The notes below the pieces were generated by a model, which was not told the origin of the DNA, did no database searches, and saw only the letters and a program-made list of their open reading frames with translations. The translations under genes and the position numbers were made by a program. From Symbiodinium sp. CCMP2592 (taxonomy: Eukaryota > Sar > Dinophyceae > Suessiales > Symbiodiniaceae), in assembly GCA_905221615.1 (NCBI GenBank), contig CAJNDT010006135.1, forward strand, positions 2,146,089 to 2,210,088: a DNA stretch of 64,000 bases, in the 5' to 3' direction. Within the stretch, counting starts at the first letter, position 1; every line of letters starts with the position of its first letter. Positions 519-55,465 of this stretch are shown one piece after another.

Positions 519-699
519 AAAAGGAGGGACCCTTAATAAGGACCCTTAGGTTTTTAAGGGATCAAAAAGGGTTCTATAAAGGGTTTAGGGTGTAGGATTC
601 CCTTAATAAGGACCCCTAGGTATATACCATTAATATAGCTAGTATGTACCCATTATAGAGCCCATTATAGGGTAGGGGTCCCCATTAAGGGTCCCTCCA
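519..699. mobile_element. HP10 hairpin carrying a PM insertion
   Basis: Outer arms AAAAGGAGGGACCCTTAAT and inverse GGGTCCCTCC. The left arm is split by a short PM block at 551-599. The 21 bp at 530-550 reappear at 600-620 with one mismatch. Confidence 0.75.
551..599 (+). mobile_element. PM module inserted in HP10
   Basis: Short PM ending GGGTTCTATAAAGGGTTTAGGG. It lies between the two copies of the duplicated 21-bp HP10 segment. Confidence 0.6.
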
Positions 700-890
700 T
701 TTCCCCTTTGATAGAAACCCTACCCCAATACCATAATATTAGTTTTCTTGGTGATGCATTCCCGGGAAGCTTACGTCAAGTCTAGTATAGTATACTACCC
801 CAGTTTCATGTTCGAGTTCCCACGGCCCCATAAGGAAGGGTATGCACCTACGAAGTTTCCCGGCCCCGGTGGTAGCAAGCAACATCCCTT

Positions 891-988
891 AGAAGGGGCC
901 CCCACCCTGTAATAGTGGTATAATAGGAATATACTAGGGCCCTATTATAATCCTAATATACCACTATTACAGGGTGGGGGCAGCTTCT
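891..988. mobile_element. Single-copy hairpin
   Basis: Arms of about 30 bp (CCCCCACCCTGTAATAGTGG and inverse) with few mismatches. No second copy seen in the window. Confidence 0.7.
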
Positions 989-1078
989 AAAATATCCCAG
1001 TCGCCAACGAGAAGCCCCATCACTGAGGCTTTTAGGGGAGCCGATGCCTAAAAAAATCAAAAACACCTACAACAAACC

Positions 1079-1194
1079 TACCCAGAACTTCCAAAATCCC
1101 TTAATTCGGGAAGATTACCTTAGATTAGAATAGGACACCTAATATATGATTTAAGGTACTTGCCTCAATTAAGGGATTTTGGAAGTTCTGGGTA
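1079..1194. mobile_element. HP3 hairpin
   Basis: TA-CCCAGAACTTCCAAAATC on the left, exact inverse ending GTTCTGGG-TA on the right. The outer TA may be a 2-bp target duplication. Confidence 0.8.
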
Positions 1195-1278
1195 ACCCCC
1201 AGACCACGACCTGGGAATCCAAAACCCTACGGTTCTAAGGGGTTAGACCCTGTACTTACGGGGCCACAACCTACTATG

Positions 1279-1343
1279 TAAAGGGGCTCCTTAAAGGGAT
1301 CTATAGGGTTCCTTAAAAGGATCTATAGTTTAGGGTTTAGGGG
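1279..1343 (+). mobile_element. PM module with telomeric tail
   Basis: Two CTCCTTAAAGGGATCTATA-type monomers run straight into TTTAGGGTTTAGGGG. Confidence 0.6.
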
Positions 1344-1346
1344 CTG

Positions 1347-1468
1347 CTTGGAGGGTCAGGGGACTTAGTAAGTAAGGTTATGAGTGCCCTAATTGGGGCT
1401 ATAAGTAGTTATAAGTATAGTTACCTTATTTATAACCCTAGTTACTAAGTCCCATGTTCCTTTAAGTA
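1347..1468. mobile_element. HP2c hairpin
   Basis: Arms contain GGACTTAGTAAGTAAGG and TTACTAAGTCCCATG. Outer ends are more diverged than the inner stem. Confidence 0.7.
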
Positions 1469-1540
1469 TGTCACCATGTCGTAGGGTTCAGGGCTACAGG
1501 TAGTACTATCTAATTTTGAAACCGTTGAAACCCCACTTCA

Positions 1541-1654
1541 TATCCCCAAGGGTCCAAGTACCCAATAATCATGTACTCTCCAAAATCCTAACCTACATAC
1601 CTACTATCCTAACACCGAGTACCTAATTATTGGGTCCTTTGGACCCTCAGGGTA
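1541..1654. mobile_element. HP7 hairpin
   Basis: Left CAAGGGTCCAAGTACCCAAT, right inverse TTGGGTCCTTTGGACCCTCA, with an inner CATGTACTCTCCAAAATCC. Confidence 0.75.
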
Positions 1655-1757
1655 TCAAACCCCAAAAGCCTGTCCTTTCGCACTCGGAGATCAAGCGCTG
1701 AGTGCCTCTGGGAGGAAGCTGCAAGTGGCAAGGCGTGCGGCGCCCTTCTTCCGAAAC

Positions 1758-1834
1758 GGGATCTATAGGTTCCTAGGGTTCCTTTAAAGGGTACCTTTTA
1801 AGGGTTCCTTTAAGGGATCTATAGGGTTTAGGGC
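1758..1834 (+). mobile_element. PM module with telomeric tail
   Basis: Three GGGTTCCTTTAAAGGG-type monomers end in GGGATCTATAGGGTTTAGGG. Upstream 1655-1757 is complex sequence without a recognised feature. Confidence 0.6.
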
Positions 1835-1929
1835 TCTCATACAGGATTTACATGTGGCCACAAACCCTACAGAATGGTATTTAAGCCCAGGGCTCTTCCC
1901 GAAAACGTGCTGATATAGGAAGGGGGCAA

Positions 1930-2033
1930 GACTTGATGATATAAAACCTGCATTACCTTAAGGACCCTAAACTATGGGAATTATGGTATATTCCTTATTA
2001 TGGGTAATGCAGGATTTATATCATCAACCGTAG
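1930..2033. mobile_element. HP1 hairpin
   Basis: Full-length copy with the usual core ACCCTAAACTATGGGAATTA. The left terminus has lost the CTACGG bases. Confidence 0.85.
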
Positions 2034-2240
2034 TATCCAATTAAAACTTCAAGCGTAAATCGTAAGCCCTCGCACAATAGGTTGTCAGATGATACACTGT
2101 AGCAAAATATCATCGGCGCTGATGGGTATACTAGAGACACATTGATGTTTAAGGCTAAGCGCTGTCCACGAGCTGACGGCAAAAATAAAAATTTCAGATA
2201 TATCTCTCCTGCCACTTAGGAGCTTATCCAACAAAGGCTT

Positions 2241-2353
2241 ATAGTAGAAGCCCAAAAGTTGGAAACCCCATAGCCTCAATCCTTAAGAGCGATGTATACG
2301 GAATCCCAGCAGTATGTGGCCTTAATCCGGTTTCCAACCTTATTGGGGTTTAG
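2241..2353. mobile_element. HP5 hairpin
   Basis: Starts AGTAGAAGCCCAAAAGTTGG and ends CCAACCTTATTGGGGTTTA. The core carries the family's GCCTCAATCCTTAAGAG block. Confidence 0.8.
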
Positions 2354-2538
2354 TGTCTAGTGTTGGTTAAGGAACCACAGCCGTGGCCGGCAGCTGAAGA
2401 TCTGCTTCCACGGCGAAATCTCTTCACAGAGGTCAATTGGGCAGGAAGGCTCTGGCTCCGTGCGGTTGTGAGCTACAAGGTTTGGGGCTTAGGCTTAGGA
2501 TGTAAGGGTTCAGGAATCAGGTCCATTAATGTATAGTC

Positions 2539-53594: not shown

Positions 53595-53644
53595 AAGATA
53601 CGCAGGGCTTACGCTCTTCTCATTGGCCCTTGGGCCCAGCAAGC

Positions 53645-53745
53645 CTCGGTTTAGGGTTGAGGGTTTAGGGTTAGCTAGGGTTTAGGGTTTAGGGTTTATA
53701 GGGTTTAGGGTTTATAGGGTTTAGGGTTTAGGGTTAAGGCTAGCT
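53645..53745 (+). repeat. TTTAGGG / TTTATAGGG repeats
   Basis: About a dozen units with GGGTTTATAGGG variants. The following 53746-53996 is unassigned. Confidence 0.75.
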
Positions 53746-53996
53746 CCTATAGTAAAGTTAAAGGCACCTCATAAGAATCCTAAGTATGAACTCATATAAA
53801 AACCTAGCTTTTAACTGTTGAGTCGAAGGGACCCTTTAATGGTACCTCACATAAACTCTGGATGCGAACCCTTAGTCGAGCCTGACAGTAACCCTCAAGG
53901 AAACCCTTAACGTGCGTAAGCCTTGGACCCCTTAACGGAACCCCATACAAACCCTGAACGGGAAGACCTGTATCCTACATCCCTGAATCCCTGCGC

Positions 53997-54114
53997 CCAG
54001 ACCCCCGGGAGGATCTAGAAAGTAGATCCCCTAATTTGGGGCCCTATACTACTAAGGTACTTTATAGGAACCCCCATTAAGAATCTACTTTTTGGATCCT
54101 CCCGGGGGTCTGGG
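53997..54114. mobile_element. HP8 hairpin, well preserved
   Basis: CCCAGACCCCCGGGAGGATC and exact inverse GATCCTCCCGGGGGTCTGGG. Confidence 0.9.
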
Positions 54115-54230
54115 GGTATAAGCAGAGGGACTCTTCCCCGCCGTCGAAGTCGGGATTGAACTCGGCACCGCCCGTGGGCTCCTCCATTTTGACTCCAGAT
54201 TCATAATAAGGGTAAAACTAGGGGTACTCT

Positions 54231-54292
54231 AGGGCTCCTTGAAAGGATCCATAAGGGTACTATAAGGGTTCTATAAAGGGTTTAGGGTTTAG
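54231..54292 (+). mobile_element. PM with telomeric tail
   Basis: GGGCTCCTTGAAAGGATCCA to AAAGGGTTTAGGGTTTAGG, running directly into HP11. Confidence 0.6.
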
Positions 54293-54394
54293 GTTTCCGA
54301 AAATTAAGGGTACCTTATTTTGGGGTCCTTATAATCAGGATCCTGCTATTTATAAGGATACTATATTAGGGTCCCCTATTTTCGGAAACTCCCA
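54292..54394. mobile_element. HP11 hairpin, left terminus replaced
   Basis: The left arm begins at TTTCCGAAAATTAAGGG right after telomeric sequence. The right arm is complete to TTCGGAAACTCCCATAA. Confidence 0.75.
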
Positions 54395-54437
54395 TAAAAG
54401 TCGTCTAACCCCGTCGTCGCCTAGTCGCAGCGACTCA

Positions 54438-54535
54438 CATTCCACTACCACTATGGAATTAGGTCCCAGAACATCATGATTAGGATGGTCCTTTGGGGCC
54501 TGCTTCCAGAATGGTTGCATATACGAACCCTCTGC
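54438..54535. mobile_element. HP14 hairpin, ends eroded
   Basis: CACATTCCACTACCACTATG; inner GGAATTAGGTCCCAGAACAT opposite CTTTGGGGCCTGCTTCC. Confidence 0.6.
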
Positions 54536-54742
54536 AAAATCATACCGAAGCCCGTGGATCCTGACGAACTCATGCGAAGCCTCTCACACGAAACGCTAAA
54601 CTGAAAACGCCCAGCCCTGAACCTCAACAGCCCTGAAACGTCTGGTCATGCTGAAAACACTCTATAAAACCCCTAAACCACCAAATATTATACAACCCTT
54701 AGAATCATCATAGCAATACTATTTTTAGTATTCTCTATAGAA

Positions 54743-54856
54743 TACCCAAAGGGTCCAAGTACCTAATTATCATATACTCTCCAAAATGGTAACCTACATA
54801 ACTCTTATCCCAAACCCGAGTACCTGATTATTGGGTGCTTTGGACCCTTAGGGATA
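54743..54856. mobile_element. HP7 hairpin
   Basis: TACCCAAAGGGTCCAAGTAC to TTTGGACCCTTAGGGATA. Confidence 0.85.
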
Positions 54857-54861
54857 TTAGT

Positions 54862-54970
54862 AGGCTCTCTTCTTCAACAGCCGGGCCGCAAAAAGTTCAA
54901 ACTTTCAAAAATAGAGCTAATATAAAAGGCCAAAAAGTCTAAAGTTCCCCTGTTCAATATCTAAGTAGGA
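54862..54970. mobile_element. HP27 element
   Basis: TCTCTTCTTCAACAGCCGGG to TTCAATATCTAAGTAGGA. HP7 plus HP27 recurs at 59000-59225 with the same spacing. Confidence 0.7.
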
Positions 54971-55044
54971 ATCCTCCAGGACCTAAACCCTAAATCCTAA
55001 ACCCCTAAACTCTAAACCCTAAACCCCGAAGAATCCTCCAGGAC
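54969..55044 (-). repeat. CCCTAAA block flanked by 14-bp direct repeats
   Basis: GAATCCTCCAGGAC at 54969-54982 and 55031-55044 brackets 48 bp of CCCTAAA-like repeats. Confidence 0.85.
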
Positions 55045-55105
55045 GACTTGGAAGCGATCGCTCCGCTCGCCTCTCTTCTTCGGCAGGATGGTCAGCCTCA
55101 CTCGA

Positions 55106-55225
55106 ATCAAAGGGGAAAAGGAGGGACCCTTAATGGGGACCTATAATGGGCTATATAATGGGTATATACTGGCCATATTATGGGGTATATACCTAGGGGT
55201 CCTTATTAAGGGTCCCTCCTTTTAC
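55106..55225. mobile_element. HP10 hairpin with clear target duplication
   Basis: CCTCACTCGA occurs at 55096-55105 and 55226-55235, immediately outside AAAGGGGAAAAGGAGGGACC and its inverse. Confidence 0.9.
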
Positions 55226-55238
55226 CCTCACTCGAGCC

Positions 55239-55465
55239 CTACTTAAAGGATCATGGGACTTAGTAACAGGGGTTCCTTAAAGGGCTCTTTAAAGGGATCT
55301 ATAGGGTTCCTTAAAGGGATCTATGGGGTTTAGGGTTTAGGGTTTAGGGTCTACTTAAAGGATCATGGGACTTAGTAACTGGGGTTATAATTAGGGTAGC
55401 TATACTTATAACCTCACTTGGGGTACTTATAACCTTACTTACTATGTCCAATGACCCTCCAAGTA
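55239..55465. mobile_element. HP2c hairpin with PM and tail in left arm
   Basis: The 29 bp at 55239-55267 recur identically at 55351-55379 around an 83-bp PM whose tail is three TTTAGGG units. Confidence 0.85.

Follow-up and report, generated by a model that had tools for sequence, protein, structure and literature searches.

The DNA examined here, a stretch of 64,000 bp with 46.6% G+C from Symbiodinium sp. CCMP2592 (contig CAJNDT010006135.1, 2146089-2210088; hereafter the window), is eukaryotic in character, rich in palindromic elements of about 100 bp each and populated by TTTAGGG arrays that run both ways. Some of these hairpins, whose families carry HP numbers, are interrupted by a short insert (45-117 bp in the measured cases) made up of a module and an optional telomere-like tail, with the hairpin segment at the point of entry written on both sides of it. 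A previous sequence-only reading had noticed this arrangement and proposed a short retroposon-like element with a 3′ telomeric tail. The observation itself, a polar, recurrent and target-duplicating insertion, is confirmed by our analysis; the insertions are more regular than that reading saw, and several tested features differ from the retroposon it proposed. An Rfam scan at gathering threshold returned no match in the window, which says little about undescribed RNA, and a tRNA scan of the window returned none. The telomere repeat and the hairpins would suit a dinoflagellate (PMC7789003); a dinoflagellate spliced-leader motif was absent from the 336 kb searched for it.

All seven target duplications that had been claimed are present. 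An HP10 hairpin (530..620, plus strand, with the hairpin running on to about 710) has its left copy at 530-550, the insert at 551-599 and the right copy at 600-620, the copies agreeing at 20/21 positions. An HP7 hairpin (6265..6389, plus) shows a perfect 29-bp duplication, its copies starting at 6265 and 6361 (29/29), around an insert at 6294-6360 that has no telomeric tail. The plus-strand sites in an HP2c hairpin (8486..8704; left copy 8486-8507, insert 8508-8593, right copy 8594-8615) and an HP13 hairpin (14085..14294; 14085-14106, 14107-14193 and 14194-14215) both have identical copies (22/22), and those in an HP2a hairpin (26204..26430; 26204-26231, 26232-26294 and 26295-26322) and an HP1 hairpin (50991..51181; 50997-51008, 51009-51088 and 51089-51100) agree at 27/28 and 11/12 positions. 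The seventh, in an HP2 hairpin (55239..55465, plus; left copy 55239-55267, insert 55268-55350, right copy 55351-55379), is again perfect (29/29) and has an empty relative at 6022-6120. One detail needs correcting: at 8486 the hairpin's end is missing from the left copy, not from the right.

The strongest single test of the arrangement is the empty site, and it shows that the module interrupts pre-existing hairpins. When the insert and one copy of the duplication are removed, all seven collapsed sites find paralogous sites within the window, with 11, 7, 34, 5, 49, 64 and 34 junction-spanning matches for the sites at 530, 6265, 8486, 14085, 26204, 50997 and 55239, respectively. Five matches per site were inspected, and in the same order one match at each is good, at 89.2, 91.8, 97.8, 91.8, 94.2, 90.2 and 92.9% identity with 0-2 gap letters; the remainder are poorer, and at 50997 four of the five reach only 78.8-82.1% with 3-9 gap letters. 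Target duplications of variable length with matching empty sites are thus found here, as they are for short interspersed nuclear element (SINE)-like retroposons.

The other module-bearing sites of the window are spread over both strands. HP1 hairpins carry the module at 6926..7134 (minus; module ~7033-7113, read on that strand), at 10177..10354 (plus) and at 8734..9031 (plus), where two modules follow one another with an arm segment repeated in between. Two HP2a hairpins do so on the minus strand, at 8214..8440 (module ~8352-8415, the site at 8371, in the arm opposite to that at 26204) and at 10677..10872 (module ~10795-10862). Two plus-strand sites are incomplete: at 1282..1468 a module (~1282-1343) stands directly 5′ of an HP2-type hairpin (1346-1468), with a remnant for a left arm, and at 47675..47756 an HP2 left arm runs into a module and the right hairpin is missing. 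Two HP14 hairpins on the minus strand, at 24616..24790 (the site at 24770) and at 46735..46945 (the site at 46886, with a 16-bp duplication at 46812-46827/46922-46937), have inserts bearing a piece of an HP15 arm, read by eye at the module's end at 24770 as TTTCCGAAAATTAGGG. An HP15 hairpin has its own module at 54214..54394 (plus; duplication 54214-54227/54300-54313, 12/14 identical), and an HP16 hairpin at 58742..58935 (minus) holds a degenerate module/telomeric insert between copies at 58838-58851 and 58917-58930 (13/14). The HP13 hairpin at 31318..31510 (minus; module ~31431-31505) has an inverted copy at 31937..32123 (plus; module ~31937-32018); the inserts of these two regions (31310-31540 and 31905-32130) are 0.99 alike and flank a CCCTAAA array at 31582-31751. 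Tandem satellites are also present in the window, at 3725-4048 (period 43), 4054-4746 (period 254), 12426-12888 (period 93) and 25323-26033 (period 92).

The module is abundant in the genome. A 20-bp module core, allowed up to two mismatches, gave 27,646 matches (13,817 forward and 13,829 reverse) in the 1,098,105,373-bp assembly of 5383 contigs, as against none for the same pattern reversed. Exact scans for the core and the hairpin arms in viral and other genome contigs gave no match, the window's own genome possibly being excluded from them. For comparison outside the window we used 83 exact-core anchors spread over 80 stretches, labelled L and a number (with a sign as given, as in L058-); sites within the window are named by position. 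Four anchors added late and read by eye showed a duplication in three cases, an inward hairpin in two and a TTTAGGG tail in one.

Could the pattern be produced by chance, or by misassembly of a repeat-rich genome? Random places also yield direct repeats, and the control proposed by the sequence-only reading, that flanking repeats should be commoner at modules than at random, divided according to threshold. After masking, direct repeats spanning the module scored at least 10 at 26/83 anchors against 169/1500 random places, in agreement with the proposal, and at least 18 at 5/83 against 43/1500; at a score of at least 25 they were commoner at random (0/83 against 18/1500). An artefact is nevertheless scarcely credible against the seven empty sites and the empty reversed-pattern control, and against the arrangement of the hairpin arms in 264 kb of sequence (the window and twenty 10-kb stretches). 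There, a module lies between the arms of 10/16 close direct HP1 pairs and within 80 bp of only 2/114 single HP1 arms; the corresponding figures for HP2 are 5/40 pairs and 3/123 single arms, and tandem hairpins probably account for the 35 HP2 pairs that lack a module.

To judge from their sequences, the hosts are short palindromes with identical flanking dinucleotides, mostly TA in HP1 and HP14, and several resemble the TA-inserting class of miniature inverted-repeat transposable elements (MITEs). Identical 2-bp flanks were found for 23/30 HP1 hairpins (TA/TA in 20), 13/14 of an HP1 variant, 10/12 HP14, 9/15 HP13 (TA/TA in 6), 35/71 HP2 (TA/TA in 29), 24/109 of the HP2 CTTGAAGG variant (TA/TA in 15) and 7/13 HP4, none of these last being TA. 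Inverted repeats with a 2-bp duplication are therefore clear for HP1 and HP14 and weak for the others. At 63494-63720 an HP2 hairpin appears by eye to be nested in an HP7 hairpin, with CG rather than TA as its flanking dinucleotide; both families gave matches in this region.

With regard to the tail, TTTAGGG had been placed on one side of the module only; its polarity is clear, yet not absolute. Same-strand TTTAGGG lies within 70 bp downstream of the core in 24 of 32 window clusters and upstream in 2, some of the clusters (e.g., 40126, 56194 and 60266) probably not being modules. Around the 83 anchors, within 120 bp, it is downstream in 57 and upstream in 23, with opposite-strand repeats upstream in 15 and downstream in 7, figures that may in part reflect tandem module arrays (L036, L038, L042 and L055, where the module also forms a tandem satellite whose unit is about 24 bp long). 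The tail is absent from the insert at 6294-6360, from HP19-like hosts and from three of the four late-added anchors; HP19, a name used here for a further hairpin-like family, GGGGCCTTAATAATTAGAATAGGG (L011, L020, L026 and L077), seems to host modules without TTTAGGG tails. The suggestion that the module explains much of the scattered TTTAGGG is not supported, module tails holding 76 of the window's 468 TTTAGGG/CCCTAAA heptamers in zones that cover 7% of it.

The tail nonetheless invites an explanation in which telomerase, or captured telomeric fragments, inserted telomeric repeats at double-strand breaks and the module is filler. Telomeric repeats are common in the window, and one module-less tract lies within a 14-bp duplication (54969-54982/55031-55044). 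Such insertions are documented in mammals, with target duplications and pieces of telomerase RNA (PMC2246262). Against this, the insert starts with the module, which is not telomeric, TTTAGGG is missing altogether from some copies, and the bias in target and polarity is strong; the telomeric repeat is not directly at the break, being counted in 57 of the 83 anchors within 120 bp downstream. We consider this explanation highly improbable. Tandem arrays confounded the search for direct repeats around 92 telomeric tracts. Two side observations concern such tracts: the telomere-like insert at 54969-55044, whose 14-bp duplication is perfect, has no module and no hairpin that we noticed, and at 10631-10676 an HP2a arm that has no module is interrupted by CCCTAAA repeats whose polarity, read by eye, is opposite to that of the module tails.

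Within the hairpins, placement is strongly ordered. The module can enter either arm (HP1 arm A in 8, arm B in 11 and unassigned in 1 of 20 cases), and the arm upstream of it points inward rather than outward by 38:4 in HP1 and 21:1 in HP2, counted per module hit. Among 50 duplicated inserts, all found by one procedure, 36 of the 49 that could be assessed have the partner arm downstream, and 4/50 have it upstream. Because of this inward polarity and downstream partner arm, the module's two genomic orientations are largely one orientation relative to the hairpin. Host assignments beyond HP1 and HP2 (151 rows) are noisy, and their totals are unused. In HP1 the left, module-side junction falls after arm position 20 or 21 in 21/25 rows, whereas the right, telomere-side restart is at position 2 in 11, at position 9 in 7 and elsewhere in 7. 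Some of these restart points sit where the arm can extend the telomeric phase (GGTT, G).

This junction pattern bears directly on the retroposon reading, our main rival, in which enzymes of a long interspersed nuclear element (LINE) or of a Penelope-like element would use a nick in the hairpin arm to reverse-transcribe an RNA made up of the module and telomere-like repeats. The fixed junction is on the module side, and target-primed reverse transcription, if at work, would therefore have been primed from the module end, with the telomeric repeats as the variable 5′ end; this is the reverse of the 3′ telomeric tail proposed earlier, which the HP1 junctions do not support. In that form the reading accommodates the duplications, some 10-30 bp long, and their empty paralogs, the 27,646 core matches, and the duplicated insertions at which a hairpin was not detected (L041 and L058-). 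It can also point to a 560-aa open reading frame at 49033-50715 (minus), in which Pfam recognises an RNase H domain (E 8.4e-13) and, under its cut-off, zf-RVT, and which is probably the end of a LINE. What it does not easily explain is that module sub-type is tied to host family, that the module start differs among families, and that the ends of the inserts are variable, some of them carrying arm pieces from other hairpin families. The retroposon reading is partly supported, by real, repeated and polar insertions with target duplication and empty paralogs, but as a retroposon with a 3′ telomeric tail it is not, as neither defined ends nor a constant 3′ end with tail were found; taken as a whole we regard the reading as somewhat unlikely.

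Some inserts carry foreign sequence at one end. In 4/50 inserts (L024, L041, L058- and L077) one end is an arm piece of a hairpin family unrecognised at the host site; the screen flagged 6/50, of which L052 and window 11179 proved to be their own host's arm, against 0.3/50 for shuffled inserts. By eye, both HP14 inserts of the window (24770 and 46886) hold the same HP15 piece as L077. Matches elsewhere thus continue past the boundary of the module at these four inserts and, by eye, at 24770 and 46886, as is expected of templated insertion. Furthermore, modules have entered serially at one spot in the window (8734-9031), in L058 and in L068.

The tie between module and host raises the question of shared descent. 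For 24 window inserts, with ends placed by hand, mean identity is 0.707 within host families and 0.578 between them, a tie equalled in 0/5000 shuffles, and our first reading of it was that composites of hairpin and module spread as units. In such a scheme the module enters each hairpin family once and the composite is then multiplied by a TA-specific transposase. Junctions conserved within a family, for example GGGTTTAGGGTC before TACTTGG in HP2, are in its favor, as are the identical inserts of L030+, L030- and L031 and the pairing of closest inserts with closest hosts among four HP2 sites (8486, 55239, 26204 and 8371). It was set back by comparison of the HP1 hosts. In 16 of the 20 hosts (L030+ was mis-measured and three others lack R1 or R2), set against 60 empty copies, all 16 are nearest to an empty copy (mean 0.959) rather than to another host (0.892). 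Insert similarity does not correlate with host similarity (rho 0.064, a value reached in 1734/5000 permutations), and inserts in the same arm (0.761) and in different arms (0.757) resemble one another equally. The fixed left and scattered right junction of HP1, hosts closest to empties and the missing link between insert and host similarity lead us to conclude that insertion recurs; module-bearing copies do not descend together in HP1, the family in which this was assessed.

Individual HP2 hosts add to this picture. The sites at 8486 and 55239 have inserts with a similarity of 0.916 in hosts whose similarity is 0.728, or 0.719 with one turned, and each host has an empty copy nearer than the other host, at 0.919 for 8486 (18055-18178) and 0.913 for 55239 (the copy ending at 6120). 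For 26204 and 8371, host similarity is 0.957 with one host turned and 0.757 as read, and insert similarity is 0.909; the turned match means that the hosts are the same hairpin sub-type with the module in opposite arms, which a composite does not explain, and neither does it explain why the left and right copies at 55239 have variants of their own hairpin's sub-type in common. HP2 left copies are closer to their own right copy (6.2 vs 8.0 mismatches, n=13, 25/10000 shuffles), a result to which arm and sub-type differences contribute. An earlier host comparison in which opposite arms were not turned gave 9/120 extreme pairs and is not used as evidence. Independence from host lineage holds for HP1, while across families and among the four HP2 hosts sub-type follows host, and we judge the composite transposon improbable.

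Our preferred reading, whose chances of being right we see as evenly poised, is that the module is a patch of DNA copied during the repair or replication of palindromic transposons and not an element with its own ends. With moderate confidence overall, a copied patch fits the evidence better than an element. In this model, a DNA 3′ end would form or stall some 20-30 nt inside the hairpin's 5′ arm and anneal to the corresponding junction between arm and module in a hairpin already carrying the module. The annealed end would then copy the module and its telomere-like tail and return near the base of its own arm, perhaps aided by a few matching bases, so that an arm segment of roughly 10-30 bp would be written twice with the patch between the copies. 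Microhomology may have served for the first capture in each family, to judge from the HP14 junction CCCTTTTT/AAAGGG. We infer that the arm breaks or stalls and that DNA, not RNA, is the template, as well as the direction in which synthesis runs and the origin of the founding module. Target choice is narrow, with the downstream partner arm in 36/49 duplicated inserts and sub-type tied to family, which tells against the retroposon as first proposed. It is possible, if doubtful, that the patch is also self-spreading, needing no enzyme, RNA stage or ends of its own, with hairpins that break or stall at a fixed point being mended from carriers; homology-guided repair alone would then have generated tens of thousands of copies, each a donor for its own family.

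A number of points weigh against the copied patch. No break, stall or intermediate has been observed, and the fixed module-side and variable telomere-side junction of HP1 fits target-primed reverse transcription equally well. The 16/16 nearest-empty result is not far from chance, given that 60 of 75 possible neighbors are empty (an estimate of ~0.03). HP1 left and right copies do not have private variants in common (1.06 mismatches to their own copy vs 1.21 to others, n=18, 1017/10000 shuffles as low), and HP2 left junctions split into several classes. The HP1 junction rows include a doubtful one (52943, minus, in the window) and the identical inserts L030+, L030- and L031. At least 5 of the 11 rows at position 2 had tail bases (GGG) aligned to the arm, the true restart being further in, and the formal microhomology test was inflated by the same assignment of GGG tail bases to the arm. 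The near-fixed left and scattered right junction of HP1 stands despite these caveats. The inserts of L041 and L058- lie between duplications of 24/24 and 29/30, respectively, and no hairpin was detected there; the HP7 hairpin at 6265 likewise escapes that test. The arm-piece list used in the foreign-piece screen was compiled after some of those inserts had been read.

If the copied patch is correct, the repair of palindrome breaks is enough to raise a repeat to tens of thousands of copies, with neither a transposase nor a reverse transcriptase. Interstitial telomere-like repeats would then have another origin in addition to chromosome fusion and healing by telomerase, and the insertions would provide a natural, countable record of palindrome breakage in which polarity, break and restart point are known for each site.

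The module shares features with several known systems. SINE-like retroposons are short, non-coding and high in copy number, with a tail at one end and duplications of tens of bp, and the module is alike in these respects; it differs in lacking fixed ends, in carrying foreign flanks and in having sub-types that follow the target family. MITEs of the Tc1/mariner type, like the host hairpins, are small palindromes bordered by brief duplications, often TA. Introner hairpins of Amoebophrya resemble the hosts in the same ways (PMC7789003). Both MITEs and introner hairpins correspond to the targets of the module rather than to the module itself. Among the literature listings that we read, as titles and the openings of abstracts, none named a module that recurs, is polar, is directed at hairpins and has a telomeric tail.

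Further parallels are with events at breaks. Small tandem duplications at staggered breaks involve a short stretch written twice (PMC8355091), as here, where by contrast a specific patch, 45-117 bp in the measured cases, separates the two copies. Interstitial telomeric sequences place repeats, and sometimes a second templated piece, at breaks, at times with a target duplication; here a non-telomeric module precedes an optional tail, and the targets are mostly hairpin arms (PMC2246262). Templated sequence insertions and their polymorphic forms (TSI, TSIP) arise when a distant sequence is copied into a break, with a target duplication in class 1 and junction microhomology in class 2 (PMC5110952). 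The module would be like them in being a distant copy inserted with duplication or microhomology, but they are scattered single events drawn from many sources, whereas the module recurs at one spot of particular hairpin families and with a fixed polarity.

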